28,137 nt of DNA from a virus. A program made the position numbers and the translations under genes. Shown one piece after another: positions 2,025 through 26,857 of the stretch (the first letter of the stretch is position 1; the number at the start of each line of letters is the position of its first letter). Under the pieces are notes generated by a model. The model ran no database searches and was not told the DNA's origin. It was given only the letters and a program-made list of their open reading frames with translations. The DNA lies in the IMG/VR virus record IMGVR_UViG_3300031576_001006, positions 1 through 28,137 of that record. One strand, given 5' to 3'.

Positions 2025-2426
2025 TCACCCATTCAACATGAAGTCGGCCGCCATCTTCCCAAGCGCGTGGGGGTGCTCCTCCATGAACCGCTCGCCGGCT
2101 TCCGGCTCCAAGAACCGGAGTCCTTTGCCTCTCCAGATCGTGTAGGCCAGCTCCCGCCTGGTCGACTCGCCAATGTAGCCGCTGACGTTGAGGATGAAGG
2201 ACTCGTCCGCCAGATCGATCTTGTGGAGGTGCAGGTCGTCGAGCGCGACCTTCTGGTCGGGCGTGCAACCGCGCTCCTCGCCGTGCTCATCGGCGAGAGC
2301 GCCCGGGTAGAACCCGACCGACAGGACGATCCTGCCCGCCATCGTCTCCTCGTAGTTAGCTCTCTGGAACTCCCGATAAAACCGGGTCGACCCGCACAGC
2401 ACGACGATCTTCGGCCTGGCCTCCAT
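2025..2426 (-). CDS. Nucleoside 2-deoxyribosyltransferase-like protein
   Basis: A 133-residue Rossmann-like protein. It opens with KIVVLCGSTRFYREF, has DEHGEE and LDDLHLHKIDLADESFILN in the middle, then NVSGYIGESTRRELAYT. The GSTRF and GYIGESTRRE(L) signatures recur in small phage and bacterial proteins related to nucleoside deoxyribosyltransferases, where the Glu of the second motif would be the nucleophile. The role is probably nucleotide salvage or removal, which is inferred. A longer open frame reaches 2840, but the ATG at 2426 overlaps the TGA of thyX (2428-2426) as ATGA, so I take the short form. Next to ThyX it fits a nucleotide-metabolism cluster. Confidence 0.65.
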   Translation of the reverse strand: MEARPKIVVLCGSTRFYREFQRANYEETMAGRIVLSVGFYPGALADEHGEERGCTPDQKVALDDLHLHKIDLADESFILNVSGYIGESTRRELAYTIWRGKGLRFLEPEAGERFMEEHPHALGKMAADFMLNG

Positions 2427-5937: not shown

Positions 5938-7403
5938 GTCTGCCTACGGCCCATGTTGTCCTGCGGGGTCGTGGGGGCCGGGGGTGCAGCTTCAGCGGGC
6001 GCGCCGGCCGGCACGGCCGGTGGAGCGGCGGGCGGAGGCGCGGTCGCGAGCGGCGGGGCAGACGGGACGGCCGTGAGGGGCGGGGGGCCGGCGGTCGTGG
6101 GAGCGGCGGGCGGTGTGAACGGGGCGGGCGCGGGCGCCGATGGCGCAGTGGTCGGCGGGGCGGCCGGCGGTGTGAACGGGGCGGGCGCGGGCGCCGATGG
6201 CGCAGTGGTCGGCGGGGCGGCCGGCGGTGTGAACGGGGCTGGGGCCGGCTGGGGCCGTCCGATCCCCATGGGCGCCTGGGTCTGGGGCGGTTGGACCGGT
6301 GGACCCGCGGCCGGCACACCGGCGGGCGGGGCGGCGGGAGCGGTCACGGGTGCGCTGGCGGGCGGCTGACCAGGCTGGGCCGGCGCCGCCACTACCTCTT
6401 CGCGGGTGAGCGCGAGCCCCGCCTTGTTGACGTGGTCGTCGTACGCGAGCACCTGCACCTCGGTGGACGGATCCGGCATCACCGCGTAGTTGGTGAAGTA
6501 GGCGATCCAGTCGGGCGTGAAGGTCGGGCCCGCCGCATCGTCCACCTTGTACTCCGCGCGTTCGAGACCGTTGCGCGTGTCGCGCGTCACCACGATCTCC
6601 ATCCCGACCGACGCATCCCAGAACCGCTTCTGGTTCTTGTGCTTCTGCTCCAGCGCCTCCTGGACGGTCGTGCCGGAGAACAGGAGCGTCATGGTCGTCT
6701 CCTCGGGCTCGCCCTCCATGAGGCTCCGGCGCTTCTGCATCTTGTCGATGTCGAACACGATGTAGACGAACCGGTCGCTCGGGCTCCAGTTGCTCGCGAC
6801 CTCCTGGAGGTGACGGAGCTGCGTGCCCGACCCGGTCAGCTCCTTGTAGAACGTCAGGTTCTCCCGCTTGATCTTGTAGCGGGCGTCTGGATCGCTGCCG
6901 AGCCCGCGGGCCTGGAGCTGCACGACCCACTCGGCGTTGTACTTGCGCCACCAGCGCTCCGCCTCGTCGCAGCTCGGGCAGAGGTCATCACGAACCCGCA
7001 TGCCGAGCGACGCGTGGCACTTGACGCAGTTGGCGAAGACGCCGGGCGTCCCACACGTCGGGCAGATGACTGGCGCAAAGACGATGGGAGCGCCGAACTT
7101 CTCAGCGTAGTAGTTGTTCATCTTCTTCTTGCACAGCGCGGTCGTCCGGTCCTTGTTGTTGGCCCCCATGTAGTGGAAGTAGAGCGGCATCCAGTAGGTC
7201 CGATACTTCGGATCGACGACCCCGCGGTACATGTCAAATACGGACGGGTTGAACAGGAGGTACTGGAGGTGGTTCGCGACGGTGTCGCCCTCCTTGTAGG
7301 GGCGGAGCCGCTGGACCTTCAGCGACCTGGGCCTGCCCCCACCCCCGCTCTTCTTCTGGCGGTCCTCGTCGGCTGCTTCGGGCATGTTGTATTCGTCGCT
7401 CAT
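5931..7403 (-). CDS. Candidate gp32-like single-stranded DNA-binding protein with zinc cluster and proline/alanine tail
   Basis: A 490-residue protein in three parts. Residues 1-110 include a basic linker and VQRLRPYKEGDT. A cysteine cluster follows: CPTCGTPGVFANCVKC, then CPSC. A segment comes next (WSPSDRFVYIVFDIDKM, then FWDASVGMEIVVTRDTRNG) whose layout recalls gp32-like phage single-strand binding proteins, in which a zinc-bound OB fold precedes similar strands. From about residue 345 the tail is almost purely Pro, Ala and Thr, with a 19-residue unit repeated. T4 gp32 and bacterial SSB also have flexible tails, though acidic ones. It has a strong AAGGAG ribosome site (7416-7411) and sits directly before recA. 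The function is inferred from layout and neighbours. Confidence 0.5.
   Translation of the reverse strand: MSDEYNMPEAADEDRQKKSGGGGRPRSLKVQRLRPYKEGDTVANHLQYLLFNPSVFDMYRGVVDPKYRTYWMPLYFHYMGANNKDRTTALCKKKMNNYYAEKFGAPIVFAPVICPTCGTPGVFANCVKCHASLGMRVRDDLCPSCDEAERWWRKYNAEWVVQLQARGLGSDPDARYKIKRENLTFYKELTGSGTQLRHLQEVASNWSPSDRFVYIVFDIDKMQKRRSLMEGEPEETTMTLLFSGTTVQEALEQKHKNQKRFWDASVGMEIVVTRDTRNGLERAEYKVDDAAGPTFTPDWIAYFTNYAVMPDPSTEVQVLAYDDHVNKAGLALTREEVVAAPAQPGQPPASAPVTAPAAPPAGVPAAGPPVQPPQTQAPMGIGRPQPAPAPFTPPAAPPTTAPSAPAPAPFTPPAAPPTTAPSAPAPAPFTPPAAPTTAGPPPLTAVPSAPPLATAPPPAAPPAVPAGAPAEAAPPAPTTPQDNMGRRQTW
6121..6234 (-). repeat. Two perfect 57-bp tandem repeats (19-residue APAPFTPPA... unit)
   Basis: Bases 6121-6177 and 6178-6234 are identical. 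The first bases of a third, diverged copy follow, and a partial copy precedes. Each unit encodes a 19-residue Pro/Ala/Thr block in the tail of the candidate single-strand binding protein. Identity at the DNA level, including third codon positions, points to a recent duplication. It is not a CRISPR: there are no spacers. Confidence 0.95.
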
Positions 7404-8376: not shown

Positions 8377-8405
8377 ACCCTACAGCCCTCTGGAACACGT
8401 GTCAA
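8377..8405 (-). promoter_or_regulatory. Sigma70-type promoter for the zinc ribbon/SSB/RecA/ThyX operon
   Basis: On the minus strand: TTGACA (8405-8400), a 17-base spacer, then TAGGGT (8382-8377). The -35 box contains the TGA stop codon (8404-8402) of the clamp loader gene. The spacing and -35 box are ideal, and the -10 box matches consensus at three or four positions. Confidence 0.65.
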
Positions 8406-9568
8406 CACTTTTGTCCTCGCATCCGAACGAACATGGTTTCGAGCGTGATTCGATCGATCGCTCTCGATTCGACCGCCTGGACGGCCGCGTCGTAGATCCG
8501 TTGGACAGCCGCGTCATCGAGATGGCGGGCGTTCTCAACCAACCGATCGGCTGGCAGGTGGCTGGCCGCCACACCCCGCCAACCCGTCCGGAACACGACG
8601 ACATCCCGGCAGACCCGCAGGATCGCGTCCGCCACTTCGGTCGCCACAAACCCCTTGGCCAGCGTGCGGTCGAGCGTTTCGAGGTACCGGCGGAAGTCGA
8701 GGCCGGCAGGATCAAGCAGCACGTCAGCCAAGTCGCGCATCGTCTCGGAGTCGATGCCGACAAGGCGTTCGACCTCCTCGGCGCTGGTGGGACCAAGCAG
8801 CTCAACCTTGTCGAGCAGATGGAGTGCGTCCCGCATGGACCCGCGGGCCTCGCGCGCCACGACCGCCAGGATGGCGGGGTCGAGTTGAGTGTGGCGGGCG
8901 AGCGCCTGCACGATCGTCTCGACGGTGACCGGTCGGAACACGAACGCGGACGACCGACTCCGAATCGTCTGGATGATGCGGTCGCGATCGGTCGTGACGA
9001 AGATGAAGACGTTGCGAGGGGCCGGTTCCTCGACCGTCTTGAGGAACGCGCCCCACGCCTTGCCCGAGAGCTGGTGGGCTTCGTCGATGATGAAGACGCG
9101 CCAGAACTGCTTGAGCAGCACCTGCGCGACGATCGATTGCAGGTTCTCGACCATCGCGACCCCCCGGTCGCTCGCGGCATCCACCTCGATGACGACCGGT
9201 GACCGGCCCTCCTGCACGTCGAGACACGACGCGCAAGCACCGCACGGTCGATCGATCGGCTCATCGATCGAAGGGGCGGCGCCGTGGCCGTTCGGGCACG
9301 TCAGGGTCCCGACGTCGTGGTTGGGCGCCTGAAACTGGGGCGCTCGGCAGACCACGCACAGCTTCGATTCCGACAAGCAGTTGAGCCCGGCGGCCAACAA
9401 GCGAGCGACCGTCGTCTTACCCGTCCCAGGAGGCCCGGAGAACACGTAGCTGCTGGCGATCCGATCGGACGCGATCGCCGCCCGGAGGATCCGGGCGGTC
9501 GCGTCCTGGCCAACCATGTCAGCGAAGACGCGCGGGCGAAGCTGGTTGGCGAGCGGCACGTACATCAT
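8402..9568 (-). CDS. DnaX-like clamp loader ATPase (gamma/tau type)
   Basis: A 388-residue AAA+ ATPase that would load the sliding clamp on primed DNA. It begins LANQLRPRVFADMVGQDATA, the classic DnaX start. Walker A is GPPGTGKTT (45-53) and Walker B is VFIIDEAHQL (DEAH 162-165). The usual SRC motif reads SRS (204-206), and sensor 2 is in RGSMRDAL. Between the Walker boxes is an enlarged cysteine insert with C64, C71, C74, C91, C109, C112 and C115; cellular DnaX binds one zinc with four cysteines here. There is no tau-type C-terminal extension. No delta-like subunit is visible in the window. The ATG (9568-9566) overlaps the upstream TGA (9567-9565) as ATGA. Confidence 0.88.
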   Translation of the reverse strand: MMYVPLANQLRPRVFADMVGQDATARILRAAIASDRIASSYVFSGPPGTGKTTVARLLAAGLNCLSESKLCVVCRAPQFQAPNHDVGTLTCPNGHGAAPSIDEPIDRPCGACASCLDVQEGRSPVVIEVDAASDRGVAMVENLQSIVAQVLLKQFWRVFIIDEAHQLSGKAWGAFLKTVEEPAPRNVFIFVTTDRDRIIQTIRSRSSAFVFRPVTVETIVQALARHTQLDPAILAVVAREARGSMRDALHLLDKVELLGPTSAEEVERLVGIDSETMRDLADVLLDPAGLDFRRYLETLDRTLAKGFVATEVADAILRVCRDVVVFRTGWRGVAASHLPADRLVENARHLDDAAVQRIYDAAVQAVESRAIDRITLETMFVRMRGQKC

Positions 9569-9879
9569 GTCGTCTTGATCTCGACCGGGTGCTCGATGAT
9601 GTCGGCGCCCAGCGGGAACCACCCGAAGAACGAGCCGGCCGCCTGGACGCCCCGGAGGAACGCGTCCAGTTGCTCGCGCGACCCGAACGTCTCCTTCCAG
9701 ACGGCCGCGTCACTCTCGACCGCGACGAAGTAGACGACGACGGGCGGGTCGTACAGGATGCGCTGTGGCCAGACGGACACGCGCGGACGAACCGGTCGCT
9801 CGGGTGTCGCGTCACCTGGTCCGTACGGAGCGGGCTCAGGTCGAACGGGTGGCTTCTTGGACCGGGGCGGGTGGATCAT
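9565..9879 (-). CDS. Unknown small protein, 104 aa
   Basis: Starts MIHPPRSKKPPVRPEPAPYG with a proline-rich basic N-terminal third, then a compact domain (VVVYFVAVESDAAVWKETFG ... FFGWFPLGADIIEHP). I recognise no family. It overlaps both neighbours by four bases (ATGA), between DNA polymerase and the clamp loader, so a replication accessory role is possible but inferred only from position. Confidence 0.6.
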   Translation of the reverse strand: MIHPPRSKKPPVRPEPAPYGPGDATPERPVRPRVSVWPQRILYDPPVVVYFVAVESDAAVWKETFGSREQLDAFLRGVQAAGSFFGWFPLGADIIEHPVEIKTT

Positions 9880-12410
9880 GACAGCTCCGATTGGAAGACG
9901 GCGGGGTGCCGCCAGCTCCATCCGCACGCACACGCCATCGAGGTCTCTTCGTAGCGCGAGTACGCACCAACAGGCGTCGCGTTCCCGATCGACACGGCGG
10001 GCGCCCGCTTGAGCGTCTGGTACTCGGTCGACAGCATCATGTCAGGCCCATCCTTGAGCAGCTTCTTCTCGATCTCGTCTCGCCGCTTGTCGCACGCGGG
10101 ACATTGGCGCGACGCGACCTCCACGAACGACGGTGTATTTTCGTCGCCCCACGACCGACACACCGTCAAGTCGGACGCGATCGGAACCCGGAACGAGATG
10201 CTGGTGCCGTCGAGCGCGTGCTCCATCTTGTCGCGCGTCAGCTCGGCCATCACGTCCAGTTCCTCGTCGGGCACCAGGAACCCGAGCGAGTCGTGGATCT
10301 GGAGGACGGGACGGGAGCGCAGCCGACCCGCCTGAATCGCCTGCCAGATCAGCACGAGCGCGTAGTCGGTGTAGTCGACGGCGGACGCCTGGATCTCGAA
10401 GTTGAACGCCTGGCGATACGCTTCCTGAATCCTCATCTCGCGCGACCGGTACTCGCGCGCGTAGCAGCAGGACGCGAGCTTGTCGCACGCGACGCAAGCG
10501 GGCCGGTTGTTCATCGGCACCAGGTACTTCTGATTCTTGAGCGCCCGGACCTTCGCGGCCAGCTCGGCGGTCGGAAGACCGTCGTACGGCAACGAATCGC
10601 CCCTGTAGTCGAGGTCGAACCAGAGCGATGGGCTCTGGCGCCCATAGCACTTCCACCGCTCGTCCCTGGGGCGCACCAGCAGGAACTCGTTGGACGGGAG
10701 CATCAGCTTGGCGTCGGCGAGCCGGCGCTTGCGCCCGAACATGTTGGTGACGTAACCGTCCCGTCGAGCATCCGCGTGGGATCGATCGATCGACTGCTTG
10801 AGACCGAAGTGGACCTGGAAGTAGAGGTCGAGGAAGCGGCGCGCCTCCTTCTTGGCCTCATCCTTGTCGGGCCAGATTGCCGGGAACTCCGCCATCATCA
10901 TGGTGCCGAGTCGATCCTCTTGGCCCCCGTAGATGGAAAGGAAGTTGCAGTTCTTCGCGACCGACCGCTTGGGTTTGTGGTGCTTCTTGACCCACTTGAT
11001 CAAGTCCTCGCCGGTCGGCGCCTCCAGCTTGAACAGCCGGGCGGCCGTGGCGGCGTGGGGGTCGTAGCCGGGCCCGCCCGTGCAGAACCCCTCCACCATG
11101 ACGGGGTCGTTCGAGATGTGGGCGGCGATCCGCAACTCGATCTGGCTGAGATCGCGGAACAGGAACGACCAGCCTGGCGGCGCCTCGAACAACCCCTTGA
11201 TTGCATCGCCACCCTTCTCGCCTCGGGGCAGCAGAACGACGAGCGGTTCGACCCACCGGCCCGACACCGTCGTGTGGACCTTGTAGTTTGGGTAGTAGCG
11301 GCCATCGACCAGCAGGTTGCGGAGCCCATCGACGTACGTGCCCTTCAGCTTGACGATCCGACGGTGCCGCTGGATCAGCTTGCTGAGGTCGTAGTGATCC
11401 TTTTCGAGGTTGGCAAGCTGCTCCTTGTCGGTCGAGTAGAACCCGTTCTTGCCCCGGTCACCCGTTGGCGTGAAGCCGAGCTTGTCGAACAACACCTCGG
11501 AGAGTTGCTCGGGGGACCCGGGATCGAATTCGACGCCCGTCTTCGCGATGATGTCGGCCGTGACGGTTTCGAGTTCGGCGGCAAGCTCTAGACCGACCTG
11601 ATCGGTCTTGGCCGTGTTGACCGGCACGCCGGTGATCTGCATCTCGGTCAGGACATCAAGCAGGGGCGTGAGGGTAAGGCGGTAGAGAAGGTCGAGCCCT
11701 TCCCGCTCCAGCCGCTTCTCGAACTCCCGGCAGAGCACGAGCGTGTAGTACGCGTCGGCGCACCCGTACGGCGCGATGATGTCGAGCGGGACGTAGTAGT
11801 AGCGGCCGAGGTGCTGGTCGTAGAAATCGAGCGCGAGATCCAGGTCGCGCTCGTACTGGTGGGCCTTGGGGTCGTGGTAGGTGGCGGCGCAGTCCTTCAG
11901 CTTGTGGGTCGACTCGCTCCTGGTCTCGTCGAGCAAGCCGTGCGCAATCATCCCGTCGGACTGGAGGCCGGGCACCCGGATGCGAAAGCAGTTCCACATC
12001 CAGGTGGCGTCGAACGGGCCGTTCCACGTGGACCGCCGCTTGCTCGGATCCTGTAGCTCGCGCTTCAGGTCGGCGACGACCCGGTCCCACATGCACGGTG
12101 TGATGCCGGCGCGCGAACGCTTCAGGTAGGTCGCGCCCTCGGGATTTCGGTAGAGCGGCATGTAGGCGGCGATCCGCTCGTCCCAGCAGAACGAGATCCC
12201 GATCACCTTCTCGTCCCGCGAACTGCCCGCGTCGACGAACTCGTTGTCGTCCCCCTTCCCCTTCCCACGGGTCGGATGGGTCGTCTCGGTATCCCACGCG
12301 TACTCGCGCGCGTTGGCCAAGTGATCGAATAGCCACGAAATGTCGGCGGGCGTGGTGCAGAGCCGGAACTCGACGTTCGGGGGAGCTGGGCGTGGGACGA
12401 GACCGAGCAT
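9876..12410 (-). CDS. Family A DNA polymerase with 3'-5' exonuclease and C-terminal zinc-type extension
   Basis: An 844-residue Pol I-type replicase without a 5' nuclease domain. The exonuclease residues are D40 and E42 (WDTETTHP), N130-D134 (WNGPFD) and Y215-D219 (YGCAD). Polymerase motifs are TVSGRW (381-386), motif A RDLSQIELR (D420; Tyr of DYSQ replaced by Leu), motif B with R482, K486, F490 and Y494, IQASA (673-677), and motif C QIHDSLGF (HDS 706-708, where HDE is usual). Extra cysteines (C639, C642, C648, C649) lie between motifs B and C. After residue 755, where Pol I normally ends, about 90 more residues carry CPAC (770-773) and CAC (827-829). The ATG at 12410, with GAGG upstream, is preferred to the TTG one codon earlier. 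Confidence 0.93.
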   Translation of the reverse strand: MLGLVPRPAPPNVEFRLCTTPADISWLFDHLANAREYAWDTETTHPTRGKGKGDDNEFVDAGSSRDEKVIGISFCWDERIAAYMPLYRNPEGATYLKRSRAGITPCMWDRVVADLKRELQDPSKRRSTWNGPFDATWMWNCFRIRVPGLQSDGMIAHGLLDETRSESTHKLKDCAATYHDPKAHQYERDLDLALDFYDQHLGRYYYVPLDIIAPYGCADAYYTLVLCREFEKRLEREGLDLLYRLTLTPLLDVLTEMQITGVPVNTAKTDQVGLELAAELETVTADIIAKTGVEFDPGSPEQLSEVLFDKLGFTPTGDRGKNGFYSTDKEQLANLEKDHYDLSKLIQRHRRIVKLKGTYVDGLRNLLVDGRYYPNYKVHTTVSGRWVEPLVVLLPRGEKGGDAIKGLFEAPPGWSFLFRDLSQIELRIAAHISNDPVMVEGFCTGGPGYDPHAATAARLFKLEAPTGEDLIKWVKKHHKPKRSVAKNCNFLSIYGGQEDRLGTMMMAEFPAIWPDKDEAKKEARRFLDLYFQVHFGLKQSIDRSHADARRDGYVTNMFGRKRRLADAKLMLPSNEFLLVRPRDERWKCYGRQSPSLWFDLDYRGDSLPYDGLPTAELAAKVRALKNQKYLVPMNNRPACVACDKLASCCYAREYRSREMRIQEAYRQAFNFEIQASAVDYTDYALVLIWQAIQAGRLRSRPVLQIHDSLGFLVPDEELDVMAELTRDKMEHALDGTSISFRVPIASDLTVCRSWGDENTPSFVEVASRQCPACDKRRDEIEKKLLKDGPDMMLSTEYQTLKRAPAVSIGNATPVGAYSRYEETSMACACGWSWRHPAVFQSELS

Positions 12411-12499
12411 CAACGCCTCGCTTGCAGCAGGAACGCGACCGCCATGATCAACAAGGCGGTCCCGATGAGAGCGGCATCAAGATCGGTCAACTGGCACAC
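12410..12499 (-). CDS. Possible single-span membrane micropeptide, 29 aa
   Basis: From GTG (12499-12497) the frame reads VCQLTDLDAALIGTALLI, then MAVAFLLQARR and TGA. A TTG three codons later is an alternative start. The hydrophobic stretch of about 18 residues followed by two arginines looks like a membrane helix with a cytoplasmic C-terminus. The stop (12412-12410) overlaps the polymerase ATG as TGATG, a coupling arrangement. No clear ribosome site is seen upstream and the promoter -10 region overlaps the start, so it could be a chance frame. It fills the only sizeable gap in this operon. Confidence 0.35.
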   Translation of the reverse strand: MCQLTDLDAALIGTALLIMAVAFLLQARR

Positions 12500-14143: not shown

Positions 14144-15193
14144 TCACCCGACCATCAGGGCGAGGAGCGCGCGAAACCGCCCGTCCCGCAACAAGATGGA
14201 TTTCTGGCCCAGCGCCAACTGAACGACATCGCCATCTACCGCGGCCAGCGACGTAGTCAAGTCCTTGATGTTGCATGTGCCGGTCCAGAGGACCGGCGCG
14301 GTCGTCTTGCCCAACAGCTTCTCGGACGCGGACGCGCTTCCGGTCGACGCCTTGGCCGTCACCTCGAAGACGGCGGCGCCGTCCTCCGTCTGTGCGACCG
14401 ACGCGATCACGACGTGCTCATCCTCCTTGGCGAGCACGACGCCGACAACCCGGATGGCACCGATGAGGTCGGCGAGCTGGACGTCCGCGTCCATGACGGC
14501 GACGTCGTCGAGCACCTGGTCGAACTGGCGGGGGAAGCCGTCCCGAACGGGCGAGACACGCAAGAGCGACGTGTCCGACCGGAACCACAACGACCCAGCC
14601 GAATCGATCCCCCAGCCGGTCAGCTCACCGATCCGGAGCACCTGGTCGGCGGCCGACCGCGAAATGCACGTGCGACCCGCGTGCTCCTGGGGGCACGGTA
14701 GCCGGACGGCATGGACGTGGCGGCTCCGGTGGACCGCGGCCAACAGGACGGTACCGTCCCGCCACTCCACTAGGACGCCGAGCGGATCATCCTTCGGCAG
14801 GATCGTGGCGACCTGCTTGACCGCCTCCTGGAAGCCATCGGGCGGCAGCCACGCGGCCGGTTGTTCGTCGTCGAACCCGAACCCGCTGACCCGCACGAGC
14901 GGGAGGCGCAGGCGGTACTCACCGTGCCGGATCATGATGGCGGTGTCGGTCGCGCGCAGGTCCACCGGCTTGTCGGCCTCGCGCAGATGAAGGGCGCGGG
15001 CGAGCGGGTCGGCCATCACGTAGACCGCCTCGATGTCTTCACCGTCGACCTGGACGGTCGTGCGGACCCGGCAGTCCATCCCGACCGCCACCAACGACAT
15101 GGAGCCGGCGTGCGCGTCCAACCGGACGACGTCGCCCGCGTGGGCGGCGCGCGCGGCTGCCGCGTCCAGACCCCTGACGTCCGCGATCTTCAC
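14144..15193 (-). CDS. Beta sliding clamp-like protein (DnaN fold)
   Basis: A 349-residue protein, close to the usual 366 of cellular beta clamps. It has three rough repeats and little strict sequence identity. The best matches are the domain openings such as LPPDGFQEAVKQVATIL and the end, where CNIKDLTTSLAAVDGDVVQL is followed by KSILLRDGRFRALLALM. That end corresponds to the beta-clamp pattern NxxYLxdaL...vxlxl...pxxi...yxxxxMP. A clamp would hold the polymerase on DNA, and the DnaX-like loader downstream supports this. The GTG (15193-15191) overlaps the upstream TGA as GTGA. Structure-based comparison is needed because the sequence signal is weak. Confidence 0.6.
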   Translation of the reverse strand: MKIADVRGLDAAAARAAHAGDVVRLDAHAGSMSLVAVGMDCRVRTTVQVDGEDIEAVYVMADPLARALHLREADKPVDLRATDTAIMIRHGEYRLRLPLVRVSGFGFDDEQPAAWLPPDGFQEAVKQVATILPKDDPLGVLVEWRDGTVLLAAVHRSRHVHAVRLPCPQEHAGRTCISRSAADQVLRIGELTGWGIDSAGSLWFRSDTSLLRVSPVRDGFPRQFDQVLDDVAVMDADVQLADLIGAIRVVGVVLAKEDEHVVIASVAQTEDGAAVFEVTAKASTGSASASEKLLGKTTAPVLWTGTCNIKDLTTSLAAVDGDVVQLALGQKSILLRDGRFRALLALMVG

Positions 15194-15705
15194 CGATTCC
15201 CGTTCAGCAGACTGGCCCTGATGGCGTGGAGCCGATCGAGCCGCTCCTGGTACTCCGCTTTGGCGGCACGAATCTGGCGGTCGCGGAGCGACCGGAGCTT
15301 CCGGCGCTCCACGACGCTCGGCTCACGTTCGAGCTTGAGCGCGTACTTGTCCTTGATGGCCGCGATGGCGATGTCGCGCTTGCGCATCACGTCGATGATG
15401 CCGCGGACCAGCCGCTTGGCCTTGTCGCCGACCGCCCCAAGGATCTTGCGGCGCGCGGCGGTCGCCTCCTCGTACTTGGGCCGCCGACCCGTCATAGCGT
15501 ACTGGGTGATCAGCTTCTCGACGTCCGCGAGCGTGACGTACCGGTTCGCCCCCATCGCGACCGATCCGATGTGCCCTCGTTCGACATGCTGGGTGACGGC
15601 CTGGCGCGTCACCCCCGCGATCCTCGCCGCGACCGACAACGACACCAGCTCTTCCGAGAGCTTCCCGGCTGTTGCGATCATACTGGCGTTTGACGCGTTC
15701 GACAT
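15190..15705 (-). CDS. MerR/excisionase-type helix-turn-helix protein, 171 aa
   Basis: Starts MSNASNASMIATAGKLSEEL. Residues 22-47 (SLSVAARIAGVTRQAVTQHV, then ERGHIG) form a winged helix of the MerR/Xis type, followed by YVTLADVEKLI. The C-terminal 90 residues are basic and helical, with coiled-coil character. The ATG at 15705 has GGAGAGGG just upstream; an open frame to 15783 overlaps the promoter and is rejected. As the first gene after the 15790 promoter it may regulate this operon or act at the origin. The stop overlaps the clamp start. Confidence 0.75.
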   Translation of the reverse strand: MSNASNASMIATAGKLSEELVSLSVAARIAGVTRQAVTQHVERGHIGSVAMGANRYVTLADVEKLITQYAMTGRRPKYEEATAARRKILGAVGDKAKRLVRGIIDVMRKRDIAIAAIKDKYALKLEREPSVVERRKLRSLRDRQIRAAKAEYQERLDRLHAIRASLLNGNR

Positions 15706-15722
15706 TCCACCCTCTCCGGTCC

Positions 15723-16718
15723 CTATCGACCCGACAGATCCATGCCATCGGATTTTTGGAACTGTAGCTCCTTCACGTTGCACCTGTCAAGCAATTTTGT
15801 GATCGTCTCGCCGGTGAGGCGGTCCGGATCCTTGACGCCGGCCGGCAACTCCCCGACGTACGCTGGCACCATCTTGGCGTCCAGTTCCGCGACGATCGAG
15901 ACCGCCCGCTTCCTCTCGTCCGGCCCGTTGTCGAGCAGGACGCACACGGGCGCGTCGTACGCGCGCGAAAGGGCGGCAAGCTGGTTGAGCTGGGCGGGGG
16001 ATGCGGCGGAAGTGGAGAGCCCACTGGCCGGCAGGCCGAACCCCCACAACCGCATCGCGTCGAACTGGCCTTCGACCGCGAAGATCCGCTCGACCCACGC
16101 GACCCCACGGAACCGCCATGCGCCGTACAGGTGGCGCGACGCCACCCCCTGGTCGGGATGGCGGTAGCGGATGCCGTGCCGATCGTCCTCCGACATCCGG
16201 CGGGCCGTATACGTGACGTACTCACCATCGGCCGACCAGAACGGGAACACGAGGTAGCCGCGCAGCGCACCGGCGGCATCGTCACCGAAGTGGAGGCCGA
16301 ACGCCAGTGCATCTTGTAGGCAGTAGCCACGTTCCCGCAGGTAGACGGGGGCCCGGTCGGCCGAAACGGCCACCAGGTCGGACGGAAAAGGATTGACACG
16401 CGGGCGCGCCTGCACGACACGACCGTCCGGCCTGGTGGACGCGGGCGGCGCCTCATCGACATCGAACGGATTAGGGCGATCGACTAGCGCGCAAGCCTGC
16501 CGCCACGAGAGCCCGTCGATCAGCATGACGAGCCGGACGAGGTCGCCCCGCTTCCCACACGACGCCGACTTGCACTTCCACACGCCCGTCGTCGTGTTGA
16601 CCCCGAAGCTCGGGTGGCCGTCCTGGTGGAACGGACATCGCGCGTTGTACCAGCCGGTCCCACCAACTCGACCGCCAGGCACGCGCGACTGCGCCCACGC
16701 GAGGACGTCGAACGCCAT
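15723..16718 (-). CDS. DnaG-type DNA primase (CHC2 zinc finger plus TOPRIM)
   Basis: A 331-residue primase. The zinc site is C28, H31, C49 and C54 (RCPFHQDGHPSF ... WKCKSASCGKRGD), with C-x2-H-x17-C spacing as in DnaG but C-x4-C at the end. The central region (YLRERGYCLQDALAFGLHFG; GYLVFPFW) matches the RNA polymerase domain start. TOPRIM shows FAVEGQFDAMRLWGFGLPAS (usual EGxxD) and then VCVLLDNGPDE in place of DGDxAG, a departure from the common acidic pair. It lacks the long C-terminal helicase-binding domain of DnaG, as in many phage primases. The ATG (16718-16716) overlaps the stop of the methyltransferase remnant as TGATG. Confidence 0.88.
   Translation of the reverse strand: MAFDVLAWAQSRVPGGRVGGTGWYNARCPFHQDGHPSFGVNTTTGVWKCKSASCGKRGDLVRLVMLIDGLSWRQACALVDRPNPFDVDEAPPASTRPDGRVVQARPRVNPFPSDLVAVSADRAPVYLRERGYCLQDALAFGLHFGDDAAGALRGYLVFPFWSADGEYVTYTARRMSEDDRHGIRYRHPDQGVASRHLYGAWRFRGVAWVERIFAVEGQFDAMRLWGFGLPASGLSTSAASPAQLNQLAALSRAYDAPVCVLLDNGPDERKRAVSIVAELDAKMVPAYVGELPAGVKDPDRLTGETITKLLDRCNVKELQFQKSDGMDLSGR
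15761..15790 (-). promoter_or_regulatory. Sigma70-type promoter for the HTH/clamp operon
   Basis: TTGACA (15790-15785), an 18-base spacer, TACAGT (15766-15761) on the minus strand, inside the 3' end of the primase gene. The start would be near 15754, giving a leader of about 50 bases before the HTH gene. Confidence 0.6.
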
Positions 16719-16840
16719 CAGGGCCACTCGCGCCCCATGAACCCGATGCCAGCCGGCGGATCCGTCACGACCGCATCGATCGACTCGCCCGGTCCGCCCC
16801 GCAGAATCTCCAGGCAATCGCCCTGTAGCAACTTCCACAC
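16718..16840 (-). pseudogene. 40-residue N-terminal remnant of an N6-adenine/N4-cytosine-type DNA methyltransferase
   Basis: From GTG at 16840 the frame reads VWKLLQGDCLEILRGGPGES, then IDAVVTDPPAGIGFMGREWP, and stops. This matches the conserved opening of DNA methyltransferases: GDCLEVL, then VDAVVTDPPYG, then GFMGKEW. The catalytic DPPY is DPPA here and nothing of the rest of the enzyme follows. It sits neatly between the stop of the upstream gene (16845-16843) and the primase ATG, which overlaps its TGA as TGATG. It may be a dead remnant kept because it couples primase translation, or a short peptide with a function of its own. Confidence 0.7.
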
Positions 16841-16842
16841 GG

Positions 16843-17346
16843 TCACACCGGCAGCGTCTCGATCGCGACCGCGATCAACTGGTCGATCGTCCCCACAACC
16901 AGCCGGACGGCCGGATGGTGGTAGAACGCGCAGTGGGTGAATTCGGCCTGGTGGGCTTCACCGAGGTGTCGCGTGTCCGCGACGTGAACGAGGATGGGGA
17001 CGGGTAGGACGGGTAGGGGCGGGTCCTCGGGGCGGCCGTACCTCTTCTCCAAGCCGTGGAGCTTCTTGAAGATCGAGATGTTCGTCTGCCAGGTCGCGAT
17101 CGCCATCCCGAGTTCCACGTGGGTGCCACGACCGCCCGGCAACATCACGAGGGTCATGTCGGCCCCAACCACCCCGTTGCTTTCCGCGAGCGCGACCTCC
17201 TGCATGCGGGCCGGCCCGTCCCGCTGGACGGATCCGTGGGCCGTCCAGTCGTACGAGATCGCGTAGCCGACCGCTCGAAGGCGCGCGTGAACCTCTCGCA
17301 CGTCGGCGGCGCGCGCCAACCCGGACGCCACGTAGATCGATTTCAT
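16843..17346 (-). CDS. Nucleoside 2-deoxyribosyltransferase-like protein, 167 aa
   Basis: Starts MKSIYVASGLARAADVREVH and contains YDWTAHGSV, then ALAESNGVVGADMTLVMLPG and GRGTHVELGMAIA. This is the layout of the nucleoside deoxyribosyltransferase-like superfamily, where the Glu of THVELG would be catalytic. It is the second such protein in the window, only distantly like the one at 2025-2426. Likely roles are hydrolysis or exchange of deoxynucleoside bases, or base modification; the substrate is unknown. The ATG (17346-17344) overlaps the helicase TGA as ATGA. An open frame to 17415 is not used. Confidence 0.65.
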   Translation of the reverse strand: MKSIYVASGLARAADVREVHARLRAVGYAISYDWTAHGSVQRDGPARMQEVALAESNGVVGADMTLVMLPGGRGTHVELGMAIATWQTNISIFKKLHGLEKRYGRPEDPPLPVLPVPILVHVADTRHLGEAHQAEFTHCAFYHHPAVRLVVGTIDQLIAVAIETLPV

Positions 17347-18743
17347 GTCGCCGACCTCATGAACAGGGTCTCGGCCTGCCCGTAGAACCAGCCGAACGTA
17401 CAGCTCGCGATGCACATCTTGCTGTAGTCACACTCGAACGTGATCTCGTTGCCCGTCTTGGTCTGTCGGTTGGCCAGGATCGACAGCTTGATGAGGTTGT
17501 CGTGCCCGTCCTGCGTGGTCCGGTTCACCCCGATCATCGCGTCGACCGCCTGCGGGATCCCGATCGACTTGCCGAAGTCGCTGGCGTCGAGATGCTCCTT
17601 CTTGATCGCCTCCGCCTTTGCCTGCACGGCCGTCACGACCACCCGCTTGCGAAGTCCGCCCCGCTTCCTGTCCTTCGCGTGCCGCTGGAGATCCCAGATG
17701 ACGTTCTCCTGGTTGAGCCGCTCCTCCTTCTCGCGTCGGTCCTTCGGGATTCCGATCAGGTTCGCGTAGTCCCAGATGGTCACGTCCGCCTCGAACCCTT
17801 CCTCCGCCTGCAAGACGTCGAGCTGGGCCTCGACGTCATCGACCGTCGTATACTTGGGGTCCGCCTGGATGATCTTGAGGCGGACGTGCAGCTTCGCCTC
17901 CAACTCCCGGACAAACGCGTCCGCCTTCTGCCAATCGACCGGCGTCGTGATCTCCGGCTGCGCCTTCACAACGTCGTCGTACGGCAGCTCCAGCAGGCGA
18001 GCGAAGAAACGGTCGCGCGTCAGGTCGTAGGTGTTCTCGTAGACGACGTGCGCGACGTTGTAGCCGTGCAGCAGGGCCGACAGAGCGAAATGGTTGAGCA
18101 CGATCGACTTGCCCGACTTGAACGTGCCCAACACGGCCGTGACGGTCCCCTCCTCCAGCCGAAGGTTCGCGTCCAGCTCGGGGATCCCGATGGTGAACCG
18201 CTTGCGGAGCCCGGGGAAATCTCTCGCGCGCGTCCAGTCCGCCTTGGCCGTCTGGTAATCGCCCATCAGATCGTGGACCTCGACATCATGCAGCAGGGTG
18301 GCGGCCTTCCAGACCGACCGGGCGGCAGCGTCGAGCGCCAACTTCATGCTCTTGGTCCGGCGGTAGCCCGCTTGCGCCGCCTCGAATCCGGTCGAGTACA
18401 TCCGCCATGCCATGTGCTCGCGGAAGTCTTGGACCGCCTGGTCGCCCCAGGTGATCGGGATGGTGTAGAGCGCGTAGAGCTGGTCGCGCGTGTGGATCAG
18501 CTTGTCGGGATCGTCGAACTCGCGTTGGAGCTGGACGTCCACGTACTCCCACGGGACGACCGCATCATGATCGTCGAGGTACCGGCGGAGCACCGGCACG
18601 AACCACTGGTACCCGACGATCGACATGTGGTCCGGCTGGATCTCGCGCAGGATGCGGGCGTACCGGGGATGCCACCGCTGCACCGCCATCGCGAGGAACT
18701 GGCGCTCGGTCGCGACCTGGTGGTCGGGCTGCTGGTCGTTCAT
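17343..18743 (-). CDS. DnaB-like replicative helicase
   Basis: A 466-residue helicase that would unwind DNA ahead of the fork. The N-terminal 150 residues are helical, as in DnaB. The RecA-type ATPase core opens with FTIGIPELDANLRLEEGTVT. Walker A is GTFKSGKS (206-213), VVYENTYDLTRDRFFARLL matches the DnaB H1a region, and Walker B is VTIWDYANLIG (D324). A later stretch, SDFGKSIGIPQAVDAMIGVN, corresponds to the DnaB signature around the arginine finger. It lies directly downstream of the loader, with ATGA overlap at both ends, like lambda/T4-type replication operons. Confidence 0.85.
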   Translation of the reverse strand: MNDQQPDHQVATERQFLAMAVQRWHPRYARILREIQPDHMSIVGYQWFVPVLRRYLDDHDAVVPWEYVDVQLQREFDDPDKLIHTRDQLYALYTIPITWGDQAVQDFREHMAWRMYSTGFEAAQAGYRRTKSMKLALDAAARSVWKAATLLHDVEVHDLMGDYQTAKADWTRARDFPGLRKRFTIGIPELDANLRLEEGTVTAVLGTFKSGKSIVLNHFALSALLHGYNVAHVVYENTYDLTRDRFFARLLELPYDDVVKAQPEITTPVDWQKADAFVRELEAKLHVRLKIIQADPKYTTVDDVEAQLDVLQAEEGFEADVTIWDYANLIGIPKDRREKEERLNQENVIWDLQRHAKDRKRGGLRKRVVVTAVQAKAEAIKKEHLDASDFGKSIGIPQAVDAMIGVNRTTQDGHDNLIKLSILANRQTKTGNEITFECDYSKMCIASCTFGWFYGQAETLFMRSAT

Positions 18744-19534
18744 CAGAACTTGCTCCCGACCGCTCGACGACGGTCTCCGTTTTGACTCGATACATGAACG
18801 ATTGCCGTGCGGGACATCAGAGAGGCGACGTGTTCGCCGTACCGCCGTTCGATCATGTCGGGAGGGTCGTGGCCCGCCAGGATGGTGACGCGACCGCGTC
18901 GCTCGCGCAGCATCTGCTCCAGCATCTCGCGGCCAGCGGCCGACCGACGCTCATCACGAGCTTCGCGGCCCAGCTCGTCAACCACCAGGAGATCGACCCC
19001 GAAGATGTCGACGTCGTACGCGTCACCCTCGTCGGTGATCCACTCGTCGAGGAAGCCGTCCCGCCCCTTCCAATGGGCTCGATCGGCCAAGTCGCCGGCC
19101 AGCAGATACCACGCGCGATACCGGCTGAAAGGGTGTTCTTTCGTGGCGAATAGGTGGCGGTAGAGCCGCCGGACGATCTGATGGACCATCGTGGTCTTGC
19201 CGATCCCGATCTCGTCACCCCACACGTAGCAGCCGAGCCCCTCACGCCACACGCGCGCTGGATCGGCGAGGTAGCGGTCGAGGTGACCGCGGTCGTCCAC
19301 GATGATGTCCTCGATGTTGTAGCGGAACAGATCCGGGTCGAACCCGAAGTCGCCGTGCCGCTGCATGCACGAGTACACCGCGAGGCACTCGCACGCGCGC
19401 GGCAGCGTGTTGGGCCCGCCCTGCGAGCACCCCTTGTTAGGATCGACCCGGTCGTACCCGGTACGCCGTTGACACCCGGCCAACAGGTTCGCCTTCATCT
19501 CCGCTTTCAACGCGCCTGGTAGCTCTCGCCTCAT
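18743..19534 (-). CDS. DnaC/DnaI-like helicase loader
   Basis: A 263-residue AAA+ protein. Walker A is WGDEIGIGKTTM (about 105-115) and Walker B is VDLLVVDELGREARDE. VTILAGHDPPDMIERRYGEH matches the sensor region of DnaC, where TSN precedes a Leu/Arg-rich helix. The N-terminus has cysteines C21, C36, C48, C50 and C56, comparable to the zinc-binding N-domain of DnaI that contacts the helicase. It would place the DnaB-like helicase of the next gene at the origin opened by the initiator of the previous gene. The ATG at 19534 has GGAGG at the right distance and overlaps the upstream TGA as ATGA. A longer frame to 19570 is not used. Confidence 0.85.
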   Translation of the reverse strand: MRRELPGALKAEMKANLLAGCQRRTGYDRVDPNKGCSQGGPNTLPRACECLAVYSCMQRHGDFGFDPDLFRYNIEDIIVDDRGHLDRYLADPARVWREGLGCYVWGDEIGIGKTTMVHQIVRRLYRHLFATKEHPFSRYRAWYLLAGDLADRAHWKGRDGFLDEWITDEGDAYDVDIFGVDLLVVDELGREARDERRSAAGREMLEQMLRERRGRVTILAGHDPPDMIERRYGEHVASLMSRTAIVHVSSQNGDRRRAVGSKF

Positions 19535-21486
19535 AGCGATTTCCTCCATTCGACTTCGCGGCCCATCCATCGGCCCTCCGCATCAACGGCGCTAGGGTCG
19601 CCACCGAACTGCCGATACAAATCCAGCGGAGGAGCGCCTTTCCGGATCGGTTCGACAAACCACCAATACTTCAACTCGCGCTCGCTCGGGAACAAGGAAG
19701 CGAACGCCGGGAAGTTGGCGGGCGTGATGTGGAGGGCGTTCTCCTGGCGGTAGTGGTACTGCGCGCGGAAGTAGTCGCCCGACCGGACCCGGTAGGACAG
19801 GGGCGATACGTCCGTCACGTCCTCGAACGTGCCCTTGAGCCTGGGACCTCCACCGCGCTGCGCATTGATCGCGGCCGCCTCATGTTGAAGGTTCGGGCGG
19901 AACCCGGCCGCCACCGCGTTGATCACCACCGAGTCGGAGATGCCGAGGAACCGGTGGAGCGGTTCGCGCGGGCGCGCGATCGCATCCGGGTTGGTCAGCG
20001 GGTCTTTGGTCCGCTCGATCAGGTCCCAGACGCTCGGGTACAGGGTCGGGCGGCCAGGGTCCTTGCGCTGGAGCACCTCGGTGTAGTCGGTCCAGGCGTG
20101 GTAGCGCGCGTCCCAGTAGTCGTGGACGCCATACCTGGCGATCTGGTCGCGCGCGCCGATCAACCAGCCGATCGCCTTGCAGTACAGTCCGATGTCAGCC
20201 GGGTCGTTCGTGTTGCCGCTTCGCCGTCGAGCACTCCCGCCGCCCGCCGGGAACACGAGCGTGGCGGATTCGAGTGCGGCGGCCGGGTGGCCCGGCCGGC
20301 TCACCAGCCCCCAGAGCGCGTCGGCCGGGAACGACGAGAGGACCTGGCGGAGCAGCGGGTAGAGGGCGGGCGACACCAGCCGGCTGAAGTCGGTCAGCTC
20401 GTGCGCGTCCGCCACCCACGCGGCCACCCCACCCCAGAGGAGCGGGTCGTGCCCCTCCTGCTTGACGGAGTCGAGCACGGCGGCCGCCTGATCTTGGACG
20501 TGCCGGCTGACCTGACCGCTACCGAACCAGACGTCGCCAGGGCCCTCGGTCGAGATGGTCCGGTAGATCGCCCTGGCGTTGTGGGCCGCAACCTCCAAGC
20601 AGCCTGAGAGAGGAGGGCGGGTCCCGTTGCTACCCGAGGAGGATCCGTTACTACCCGGTGGTACGGTGGTACCGCTCAACCGCGAGGGAGGAGGGAGACC
20701 AGCACCGCCGCGGAATGATCCTCGGTATCCACTTCCCTCACCCATCCTTTCCACCCCATCCTTACCCCCTATCCTTTCAAGGGAGCCATTTTCGGTGCTA
20801 TCACTATGATTTTGCTCAGTTTTCTCGGAAACCATGGGGGTCGGGCTCCGCCCCTCATGGGGGTCGGGCTCCGCCCCTCTTGAGGGTCGGGCTCCGCCCC
20901 TCATGGGGGTCGGGCTCCGCCCCTCATCACTATGTGGGGGTCGGGCTCCGCCCCTCATTTTCTTTAATGGTTTCGTGTTGGTGAGGGTCGGGGCCCGCCC
21001 CTCATGCAACGCGGCCAGCTCATCGTGGACCGTCTTGTTCCCGATGATGTCGGCGATCAGCCAGGTGGTGCCACCGTCGTGTGAGTGGCTGACGACCTCG
21101 ATCGCCCCGATGAGACCGTGCTCCTGCAATCGCTTGAGCGCGTCCTTCGTGGTCGAGACGGCCAGCCCCGCCTCCGCCGCGACCCTCTCGCGAGACGCCC
21201 GGATAGTCTGGCCGGCAACCAGGCTGAACGCCGCCTCCATCTTGACCTTCAGGTCCGGGTTGCTCCGGACGGTCTCGTCGGAGACATCGGGCGCGACCCC
21301 ATCGATCTCCGCCCGGTAGCGGAGCAGACGAGCGATCGCCTCCAGGACGAGCCGGTCGGACGCCTCAAGCCCCAACCGCAACCCCGTCCGCCTGACTGCG
21401 TCGAGCCAGTCAAGCGGGAGCATGTACCAGTTATTGGTGTCGGGGTCGTGTGGGCAGCGGTGCCGTTGACGGTACGGGACCGTCAT
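19531..21486 (-). CDS. Lambda O-like replication initiator candidate with origin repeats inside its gene
   Basis: A 651-residue protein starting MTVPYRQRHRCPHDPDTNNW. Residues about 94-130 (TIRASRERVAAEAGLAVSTT, then KDALKRLQEHGLI) form a winged helix typical of phage and plasmid initiators. Residues about 161-217 are a low-complexity linker encoded by six iterons. More disordered Ser/Gly sequence follows, then a globular C-terminal region (about 340-651) without recognised family. Its place just before the helicase loader and helicase mirrors lambda O-P. AAGG precedes the ATG. An open frame runs on to GTG 21642 but passes through the structured leader and has no ribosome site, so it is rejected. 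The initiator function is inferred from layout. Confidence 0.65.
   Translation of the reverse strand: MTVPYRQRHRCPHDPDTNNWYMLPLDWLDAVRRTGLRLGLEASDRLVLEAIARLLRYRAEIDGVAPDVSDETVRSNPDLKVKMEAAFSLVAGQTIRASRERVAAEAGLAVSTTKDALKRLQEHGLIGAIEVVSHSHDGGTTWLIADIIGNKTVHDELAALHEGRAPTLTNTKPLKKMRGGARPPHSDEGRSPTPMRGGARPSRGAEPDPHEGRSPTPMVSEKTEQNHSDSTENGSLERIGGKDGVERMGEGSGYRGSFRGGAGLPPPSRLSGTTVPPGSNGSSSGSNGTRPPLSGCLEVAAHNARAIYRTISTEGPGDVWFGSGQVSRHVQDQAAAVLDSVKQEGHDPLLWGGVAAWVADAHELTDFSRLVSPALYPLLRQVLSSFPADALWGLVSRPGHPAAALESATLVFPAGGGSARRRSGNTNDPADIGLYCKAIGWLIGARDQIARYGVHDYWDARYHAWTDYTEVLQRKDPGRPTLYPSVWDLIERTKDPLTNPDAIARPREPLHRFLGISDSVVINAVAAGFRPNLQHEAAAINAQRGGGPRLKGTFEDVTDVSPLSYRVRSGDYFRAQYHYRQENALHITPANFPAFASLFPSERELKYWWFVEPIRKGAPPLDLYRQFGGDPSAVDAEGRWMGREVEWRKSL
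20787..20833. other. AT-rich segment beside the iterons, possible DNA unwinding element
   Basis: About 40% G+C by my count against roughly 65% around it, with several T runs (ATTTTCGG, GATTTTGC, AGTTTTCT). It lies next to the first iteron, as the AT-rich segment does in lambda ori. It is coding, within the initiator linker. Confidence 0.5.
20838..21005 (+). repeat. Six iterons inside the initiator gene (candidate replication origin)
   Basis: Core GGGTCGGGCTCCGCCCCTCA plus T. Copies are at 20838-20858, 20861-20881 (last bases CTT), 20884-20904, 20907-20927, 20938-20958 and 20985-21005 (two central changes, GGCCC). The first four are spaced exactly 23 bases apart, the next 31 and 47. Each is an imperfect palindrome (GGGG-T-CGG, GCT, CCG-CCCC). 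Because 23 is not a multiple of three, the same repeat is translated in all three frames (MRGGARP, EGRSPTP, RGAEPDP). This indicates the DNA, not the peptide, is what is kept. An AT-rich 26-base gap separates the last two. Confidence 0.85.
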
Positions 21487-21540
21487 CACCTTGACTTCGC
21501 GTGGCTTTCGCTTGCCCACGCGGGCTACCGGGCCGACAAA

Positions 21541-21662
21541 AGGAAAGCGGCGGCGACCTCGTTCTGCCAGGGAGTCGGCCCGGCGGAACCATGAAGGCCC
21601 GGGTCCGATCCCTTGTTGCCTGGGGTTCCCCCCTCGCAACACGAGGACGCCGCCGCTTTGAG
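21541..21662 (-). ncRNA. Structured leader RNA with three-way junction
   Basis: On the minus strand, AAAGCGGCGGCGTCCTCG (21659-21642) pairs with CGAGGTCGCCGCCGCTTT (21561-21544): 17 pairs and one U-U mismatch. Inside is hairpin P2 (21640-21615), made of GTTGC, GA, GGGG, a GGAA tetraloop, CCCC, AG and GCAAC. That is a GNRA loop with tandem G-A pairs. Hairpin P3 pairs GGGATCGG (21612-21605) with CCGACTCCC (21578-21570), continued by CCCGG/CCGGG. The GNRA loop exists only on this strand, which is also the strand of the promoters. The predicted start of promoter P2 falls at the 5' foot of P1, and the 3' foot runs into TTTCCTTTT, so it could end as a separate RNA of about 120 bases or act as an attenuator. 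Confidence 0.7.
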
Positions 21663-21668
21663 TGAATA

Positions 21669-21698
21669 GCTGTAGATCACAATGATTCCGGCTGTCAA
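21669..21698 (-). promoter_or_regulatory. Promoter P2 of the initiator operon
   Basis: TTGACA (21698-21693) with CTACAG or TACAGC after 17 or 18 bases. The predicted start, near 21662, coincides with the first bases of the folded leader. A 7-base inverted repeat, GCTTTCG/CGAAAGC (21723-21729 and 21702-21708), lies just upstream of this -35 box and could be an operator. Confidence 0.55.
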
Positions 21699-24995: not shown

Positions 24996-25373
24996 GTGTG
25001 GATCCGGGGCAAGCGCGTCCGCAACCGCTGGGGCGATTGGGAGTGGAGCCCACGGTTGACGATCGAGCAGCTCCGCGAGGCCCGCGAGGCTGTGCAAACC
25101 CGCTGGATCGCGTACGTGCGAGCTTGCTTGGCGCGAGGCGAACATCTCTTCGTCGGGGATAAGCAGTACCCTAGCATCAAGACGCCCCTGGGGTTCACGC
25201 CCAACGATTTCGTCCGGACGACTGTCGAGCCGCTCGGCATCAAGGTCGACTTCTTCAACATCAGGCAGTTCTTTCAGACGATCGAGGTGTCGGCCGGCAC
25301 CTTTGACCAGGGCCCCGTCGAGCCGCACGTCCGGCTCGCCAACGTCCTGACTGAACCGGATGGAGGATGGTGA
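24996..25373 (+). CDS. Unknown protein, 125 aa
   Basis: GTG start, WIRGKRVRNRWGDWEWSPRL, with GAGG about 12 bases upstream. It has a basic, tryptophan-rich N-terminus, then a helical stretch (TIEQLREAREAVQTRWIAYV) and an ordered C-terminal part. Family not recognised. It begins 3 bases after the DUF3560 gene, and its stop overlaps the ATG of the GHKL gene as TGATG. Confidence 0.65.
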   Translation: MWIRGKRVRNRWGDWEWSPRLTIEQLREAREAVQTRWIAYVRACLARGEHLFVGDKQYPSIKTPLGFTPNDFVRTTVEPLGIKVDFFNIRQFFQTIEVSAGTFDQGPVEPHVRLANVLTEPDGGW

Positions 25374-26857
25374 TGACGATGGCGCTACCGACATTCGAGG
25401 TCGACAAGGAGGGGCTCGGCAAGCTGCTGGCGCGGCGCGGCATCGAGTTCGCCGTGCTGGAGTTGATCCAGAACGCGCTCGACGAGAACGTCACGCGCGT
25501 GGACGTTCGACTGGAGCCGTCGAACACACGCGGCTACTACCACCTGATCGTCGAGGACGACAACCCCGAAGGGTTTGCCGACCTGCGCGATGCCTACACC
25601 CTGTTCGCCGAGTCGCGCAAGAAGGCAAACCCAGAGCAGCGCGGTCGCTTCAACCTGGGCGAGAAGCTCGTCATTGCGGTCGCGCGTACCTCCTCGATCA
25701 CGACGACCAAGGGGACCGTTCGGTTCGATCGAGATGGCCGCCACCATTCGCCCAAGGCGACGAAGACGGGCACGATCGTCGAGGTCGCCATCAAGATGAC
25801 GCGCGAAGAGGCCGAGCGCACCGAGCAGGCGGTCCGCTCCGTGCTGGTGCCGGGCGCGCAGCCTCCTGCCCGGCAGGTCCGGCTCACGTTCAACGGCACC
25901 GATATCGAACCGCGCGACGCGATCGCCACGTTCAACGCGACGCTCGCAACCGAGCAGGCCGACCACGAGGGCTACCTCCGGCCGACCAAGCGGCAGACCG
26001 ACGTCTTCGTGGTGGCGGTCCGGGCGGGCGAGCAGGCGACCCTCTACGAGCTGGGCATCCCGGTCGTTCCGATCGATTGCGCCTGGCATGTCGACGTGGC
26101 TCAGAAGATCCCATTGAACTCGGATCGAGATGGTGTCACGCCCGCATACCTGCGGACCCTACGCGCGCTCGTGCTCAACTGCATGCACGACCGCCTACCG
26201 GCCGGCTCGGCCGAGACCGCGTGGGTCGCGGACGCGATGGAGACCGATCTACTGTCGACCGATGCGGTCGGATCGATCATCACCGAGCGATACGGCGACA
26301 AGCGGGTCATCCGGGACCCGAGCGATCCGGAGGGCACCAAGCTGGCGGTGAGCAAGGGGTACACGCTCATCGAGCCAGGCTCGTTCTCCAAGGCCGCGTG
26401 GGAGTCGATCCGGCGCTCTGGTGCCGCCCTACCGGCCGGCCAGGTGACCCCGAGCCCGCGGGTCGAGTGGTCGAGCGACCCGAACGCCAAGGACGTGACC
26501 ATCCCGGAAGAGAAGTGGAGCGCAGGCGCTCGTCATCACGTCGAGTTGGCCCATCGGCTCGCCGCCAAGCTGCTGGGCGGGCCCATCAGCGTCACGCTCG
26601 TGTCCGACCCGATGCGGCCGTACGGCGCGTGTTACGGGGGCTGGCACCTCACTTACAACGTCGGCCGACTCGGTTGGGCGTACTTCGACAAGGAGCCGGC
26701 CCGCGAGGAGCACCTGGCTCTGCTGATCCATGAGTTTGCTCATCAGATGGCCTCGGATCATCTTGACTCGCGGTACCACGATGGGCTCTGCACGCTGGCC
26801 GCCCGGCTGGCTCGACTGGTCGAGCGGGAGCCGGGCGTGTTGAGGGGGAAGCCGTGA
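25373..26857 (+). CDS. GHKL (Bergerat-fold) ATPase with C-terminal HExxH zincin motif
   Basis: A 494-residue protein. The N-terminal ATPase motifs are AVLELIQNALDE (N34, D37), then VEDDNPEGFAD for the DxGxG box, and RGRFNLGEKLVIAVA for the glycine-rich lid, as in Hsp90, MutL and T4 rIIA-like proteins. TTTKGTVRFDRDGRH continues the fold. After a long middle region the C-terminus has LLIHEFAHQMASDH: HEFAH at 453-457 and a third His at 463, the metzincin-like HExxHxxxxxH spacing with Ala in place of Gly. The last 28 residues recur in a gene downstream. GGAGG is placed for the ATG at 25373, so I prefer it to the one two codons earlier. Whether the zincin part cleaves protein is unproven. Confidence 0.8.
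   Translation: MTMALPTFEVDKEGLGKLLARRGIEFAVLELIQNALDENVTRVDVRLEPSNTRGYYHLIVEDDNPEGFADLRDAYTLFAESRKKANPEQRGRFNLGEKLVIAVARTSSITTTKGTVRFDRDGRHHSPKATKTGTIVEVAIKMTREEAERTEQAVRSVLVPGAQPPARQVRLTFNGTDIEPRDAIATFNATLATEQADHEGYLRPTKRQTDVFVVAVRAGEQATLYELGIPVVPIDCAWHVDVAQKIPLNSDRDGVTPAYLRTLRALVLNCMHDRLPAGSAETAWVADAMETDLLSTDAVGSIITERYGDKRVIRDPSDPEGTKLAVSKGYTLIEPGSFSKAAWESIRRSGAALPAGQVTPSPRVEWSSDPNAKDVTIPEEKWSAGARHHVELAHRLAAKLLGGPISVTLVSDPMRPYGACYGGWHLTYNVGRLGWAYFDKEPAREEHLALLIHEFAHQMASDHLDSRYHDGLCTLAARLARLVEREPGVLRGKP

Follow-up and report, generated by a model that had tools for sequence, protein, structure and literature searches.

A probable replication origin of dyad iterons inside the initiator gene of a GC-rich phage

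In a 28,137-nt stretch of viral DNA (positions 1 to 28,137 of IMG/VR record IMGVR_UViG_3300031576_001006; below, the window), the minus-strand gene for a protein of 651 amino acids contains a compact array of palindromic repeats. What function would place such repeats inside a coding sequence? Comparison with known phage origins and with one related contig makes it highly likely that this locus, in the linker of the predicted initiator gene, serves a GC-rich phage as its origin of theta-type replication. The features discussed are collected in Table 1.

Table 1. Features of the putative origin and of the replication genes in the window
Feature	Position	Strand	Remarks
Predicted replication initiator, 651 aa	19531..21486	-	ORF from ATG 21486
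HTH/winged-helix-like segment, ~residues 80-140	21067..21249	-	Weak matches; predicted iteron-binding domain
C-terminal domain, ~residues 295-651	19531..20604	-	55% identity to relative over C-terminal part
Iteron 1	20835..20857	+	23-bp imperfect dyad, adjoins AT-rich tract
Iteron 2	20858..20880	+	23-bp imperfect dyad
Iteron 3	20881..20903	+	Arms agree 9/10
Iteron 4	20904..20926	+	23-bp imperfect dyad
Iteron 5	20935..20957	+	8 bp from iteron 4; identical to iterons 1 and 4
Iteron 6	20982..21004	+	Isolated; both arms intact, centre GGC vs GCT
Candidate DNA unwinding element	20726..20834	.	Lowest stability, purine bias, low GC3
14-bp CCCATCCTTTCCC-like repeat, 2.8 copies	20741..20778	.	Within candidate unwinding region; gene strand GGATGGG...
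DnaC-like helicase loader	18743..19534	-	phrog_50 E 6e-6, phrog_3277 E 6e-5
DnaB-like replicative helicase	17343..18743	-	phrog_19 E 2e-39
DnaG-like primase	15723..16838	-	phrog_47, PF01807
Polymerase processivity factor (clamp)	14144..15193	-	phrog_947 E 2e-15
Family A DNA polymerase	9876..12413	-	PF00476, phrog_17
Clamp loader	8402..9622	-	phrog_5846, PF13177

On the plus strand the repeat unit reads TGRGGGTCGG-GCT-CCGCCCCTCA, an imperfect dyad in which two 10-bp arms, agreeing at 7-9 of 10 positions, flank a 3-bp centre. Its register was taken from the two isolated copies, at 20935 and 20982, which give a length of 23 bp instead of the 21 bases of the earlier note. That note had counted six copies in the initiator gene, four of them at an exact 23-base period, and both counts hold: six dyads lie at 20835-21004 within the coding sequence, although the copy number comes from a metagenome assembly, which could alter a tandem count. 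The first four abut, starting at 20835, 20858, 20881 and 20904, and the remaining two follow at steps of 31 and 47 bp. Tandem Repeats Finder (TRF) gives the array a score of 176, with a period of 23 and 94% matches. The motif TGRGGGKCGG is perfect in 11 of the 12 half-sites of the array and occurs perfectly once more in all 28 kb. No further copy with up to three mismatches is present in the rest of the window, none appears in 100 dinucleotide-preserving shuffles of it, and an exact 19-mer of the repeat has no match in the viral contig collection beyond this record.

The six iterons use all three reading frames of the 651-residue minus-strand ORF. Selection on the DNA had been argued from these frames; the frames themselves are confirmed but the argument is weak, because tandem duplication explains the pattern and lambda iterons do likewise, its four iterons, at a spacing of 20-24 bp, being spread over all three frames. 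Translation of the iterons in three frames is neither special nor new.

Next to iteron 1, the DNA is unusually easy to open. By nearest-neighbour stacking energies, stability in the 28-kb window is lowest at 20726-20825 for segments of 100 bp (z -3.85), with the end of this segment 9 bp from the iteron, and at 20787-20826 for segments of 40 bp; the GC content of the latter is 38%, in keeping with the segment of about 40% G+C described before. The 100-bp segment shares part of its length with the 60 bp in which the gene strand has its strongest purine bias (20719-20778, 83% purine, z 4.4). In the candidate unwinding tract, GC content at third codon positions is 0.46, versus 0.82 across the initiator gene.

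HTH proteins also bind dyads in typical operators, so the repeats might be targets through which the initiator or another phage repressor regulates the replication operon, the true origin lying elsewhere; a terminator scan indeed flags plus-strand hairpins followed by T-rich sequence at 20934-20955. The repeats, however, lie about 480-650 bp into the gene and not at its start, with no copies upstream of it, and the low-stability tract would have no role in a plain operator. We consider regulation without an origin quite improbable.

A single relative was found, IMGVR_UViG_3300025580_000012, a 71,474-bp IMG/VR contig from an uncultivated phage. Viral and genome scans with the initiator, helicase and loader proteins, with two-row alignments and with DNA patterns (the repeat, a helicase motif and an initiator motif) yielded none beyond this contig; such scans rely on short conserved peptides, so they may miss distant relatives. 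The operon is syntenic with that of the window across about 16 kb, with identities of 55% for the C-terminal part of the initiator, 61% for the loader and 70% for the helicase. The contig begins inside its own array, and the N-terminal domain of the initiator is thus absent from the comparison. Its first 76 bases, which fall in the corresponding linker, are again built of 23-bp dyads set end to end, AAGGGGGTCAGGACTACCCCCTT, and read in three frames. These repeats occur nowhere else in the 71-kb contig, from which the unit of the window is absent.

The earlier note had expected the repeats to be kept in related phages. Their place, period and dyad character are kept in this relative; their sequence is not. 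At the best register the two units share 15 of 23 bases, a value reached by 0.6% of plain and 1.9% of palindromic shuffles (20,000 shuffles); for this reason the two words are probably, but not certainly, related. The peptides translated from the two arrays are unrelated. The low-stability tract recurs too: within the first 16 kb of the relative's contig, the lowest-stability 100 bp start 4 bp past the array (z -5.0), on the same side as in the window, directly on the gene's 3' side, and purine bias on the gene strand again peaks there (60-bp windows, z 3.6). Period, dyad character, place and adjoining tract are therefore common to both phages while word and peptide differ, which fits the binding sites of a co-evolving initiator and not a constrained peptide. 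The amino acids that the array contributes to the linker probably do not matter; it would be the word in the DNA that is kept.

This comparison also bears on the most serious competitor, namely that slippage in a disordered linker simply multiplied a GC-rich 23-mer, leaving a neutral minisatellite that plays no part in DNA binding. In its favour, four copies stand in exact tandem and hardly differ, the linker peptide encoded at the array is of low complexity, and duplication alone can yield a period not divisible by three. Slippage leaves unexplained, however, why copies 5 and 6 retain their arms despite unrelated spacers, why the units of both phages are dyads to a degree equalled by only about 0.1% of shuffles for each, why a different word recurs in the relative at an unchanged period and place, and why both arrays adjoin a tract of lowest stability. 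A neutral origin of the repeats thus appears unlikely. Action of the array as single-stranded hairpins, in mRNA or ssDNA, for translation control or primosome assembly is the least probable reading: the window's units can form hairpins and the array, as RNA of the gene strand, is much more stably folded than its shuffles (z -7.2), but good folding is built into any tandem palindrome, the array of the relative reaches just z -2.4 with one unit folding no better than shuffles, and the double-strand iteron of lambda makes an equally good hairpin.

A replication origin remains the preferred reading, and its plan has known precedents. In lambda, the origin within gene O consists of 19-bp dyad iterons and an AT-rich tract; contacts are made to the G-tracts in every iteron, and unwinding needs no more than two iterons together with the AT-rich tract (PMC7466680). 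As in the window, the dyads lie mid-gene and in all three frames, and a low-stability, purine-biased tract 3' of the iterons is followed by the loader gene, P. Lambda has four iterons; the lambda-type origins of Stx phages have six, as does the window. We used lambda as a control for the layout of iterons and tract. The least stable 40 bp of gene O directly follow iteron 4 and show purine bias on the coding strand (z 2.7), but this tract is not the stability minimum of the 18 kb examined; the control therefore backs the layout and not the ranking. The repeat word of the window is unlike that of lambda, and the O protein has 299 residues against 651 for the window's initiator. Lambda uses the DnaB of its host, whereas the window phage encodes a DnaB-like helicase.

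Phage SPP1 has its oriL in gene 38, composed of direct repeats and an unwinding element, with loader and helicase genes following (PMC6316719). Its gp38, gp39 and gp40, i.e., initiator, loader and DnaB-like helicase, are encoded by consecutive, overlapping genes as in the window (PMC6316719), making SPP1 a nearer operon match than lambda. The likeness rests on layout: the SPP1 initiator has 256 residues compared with 651, a second origin, oriR, accompanies oriL, and SPP1 uses the polymerases, clamp, clamp loader and primase of its host, whereas the window phage encodes its own. With repeats inside the initiator gene, an AT-rich candidate unwinding tract adjoining them in window and relative, and a helicase loader and helicase encoded beside the initiator, the locus very probably belongs with lambda ori and SPP1 oriL as a replication origin, the relative being the strongest new evidence. 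The lambda-like layout proposed in the earlier note is upheld by the same features, together with weak HTH matches in the initiator, upstream of the array, and the recurrence in the relative.

The initiator itself has no family match in PHROG, Pfam or NCBIfam and no match in INPHARED or PLSDB; to the earlier note the repeat sequence and the size and C-terminal region of the protein had been unfamiliar. It has no sequence similarity to lambda O and no O family match in Pfam or PHROG profiles, and so by sequence is outside the lambda O family. Around residues 80-140, matches to HTH or winged-helix proteins are weak but consistent, and include PHROG replication initiation proteins, no PHROG initiator profile being significant: HTH_Crp_2 (E 0.0046), HTH_24 (E 0.0099), phrog_8102, replication initiation protein (E 0.024), and the CRP-like chain 3iwz (E 0.099). 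The earlier description as a winged-helix protein is compatible with these matches; AlphaFold without a deep alignment gave no reliable structure for the N-terminal part (single sequence, pLDDT 38) or for the C-terminal part (two sequences, pLDDT 33). The C-terminal domain likewise has no family match, and its predicted fold is unreliable; it is predicted to contact the loader or the helicase. We tentatively entertain the possibility that the protein represents a new initiator family, in which a winged-helix-like iteron binder is fused to a helicase-loading C-terminal domain of about 350 residues and new fold, and in which the iteron word evolves along with the protein from one relative to the next, on an unvarying 23-bp period and layout.

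The genes that follow the initiator are replication genes. Loader and helicase lie directly downstream, as had been stated, and their PHROG matches support the assignments; the ATG of the loader gene overlaps the initiator stop codon (ATGA), and the helicase gene overlaps that of the loader. Genes for primase, clamp, family A polymerase and clamp loader are on the same strand. Between primase and clamp, a 197-residue protein with a weak MerR-like match is encoded (15190-15783, minus strand); its counterpart in the relative shares 62% identity. Ahead of the start of the initiator gene, at 21536-21670 (minus strand), lies a strongly structured element with a long outer stem and two inner hairpins (MFE -79.3 kcal/mol, z -6.0), for which Rfam, tRNA and phage DNA gave no match; it could be an RNA leader or a terminator of the preceding genes.

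Further away, a ThyX thymidylate synthase of 627 residues (2426-4309, minus strand) contains an intein-like insert from about C60 to N392 with a LAGLIDADG match, which the ThyX of the relative (L014:15257-16000) does not have. An ORF without assigned function, at 5931-7403, is retained in the relative and contains, where the GC content is about 80%, repeats of 57 bp that agree at 98% (6103-6239). Unlike the replication genes, an ORF at 25367-26857 lies on the plus strand; it encodes 496 residues with a weak match to GHKL (HATPase_c) ATPases. Cumulative GC skew, for which the earlier note had suggested a turn at the array, has its minimum near 24 kb; the signal is weak and the window a fragment, and we dropped skew as evidence on the origin.

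Transposing the lambda and SPP1 plan to the window suggests how initiation might proceed. The N-terminal winged-helix-like domain would bind each dyad as a dimer, each TGRGGGKCGG arm taking one subunit. Once filled, the array may wrap or strain the DNA, such that the AT-rich tract, which flanks it on the side of the loader gene, would melt. The C-terminal domain and the DnaC-like loader would together deliver the phage's DnaB helicase to the strand thus opened, and primase, clamp, clamp loader and PolA, all encoded by the phage, would act next.

The protein family and the word of its repeats are new, the plan of the origin being already known from lambda and SPP1; protein and DNA word have no known relatives save in one equally uncharacterised phage. 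For a phage lineage without characterised relatives, whose replisome is almost complete, an origin is thereby predicted to exact coordinates. The two repeat words found in nature on one 23-bp period also constitute a test system for the co-evolution of an initiator with binding sites inside its own gene.
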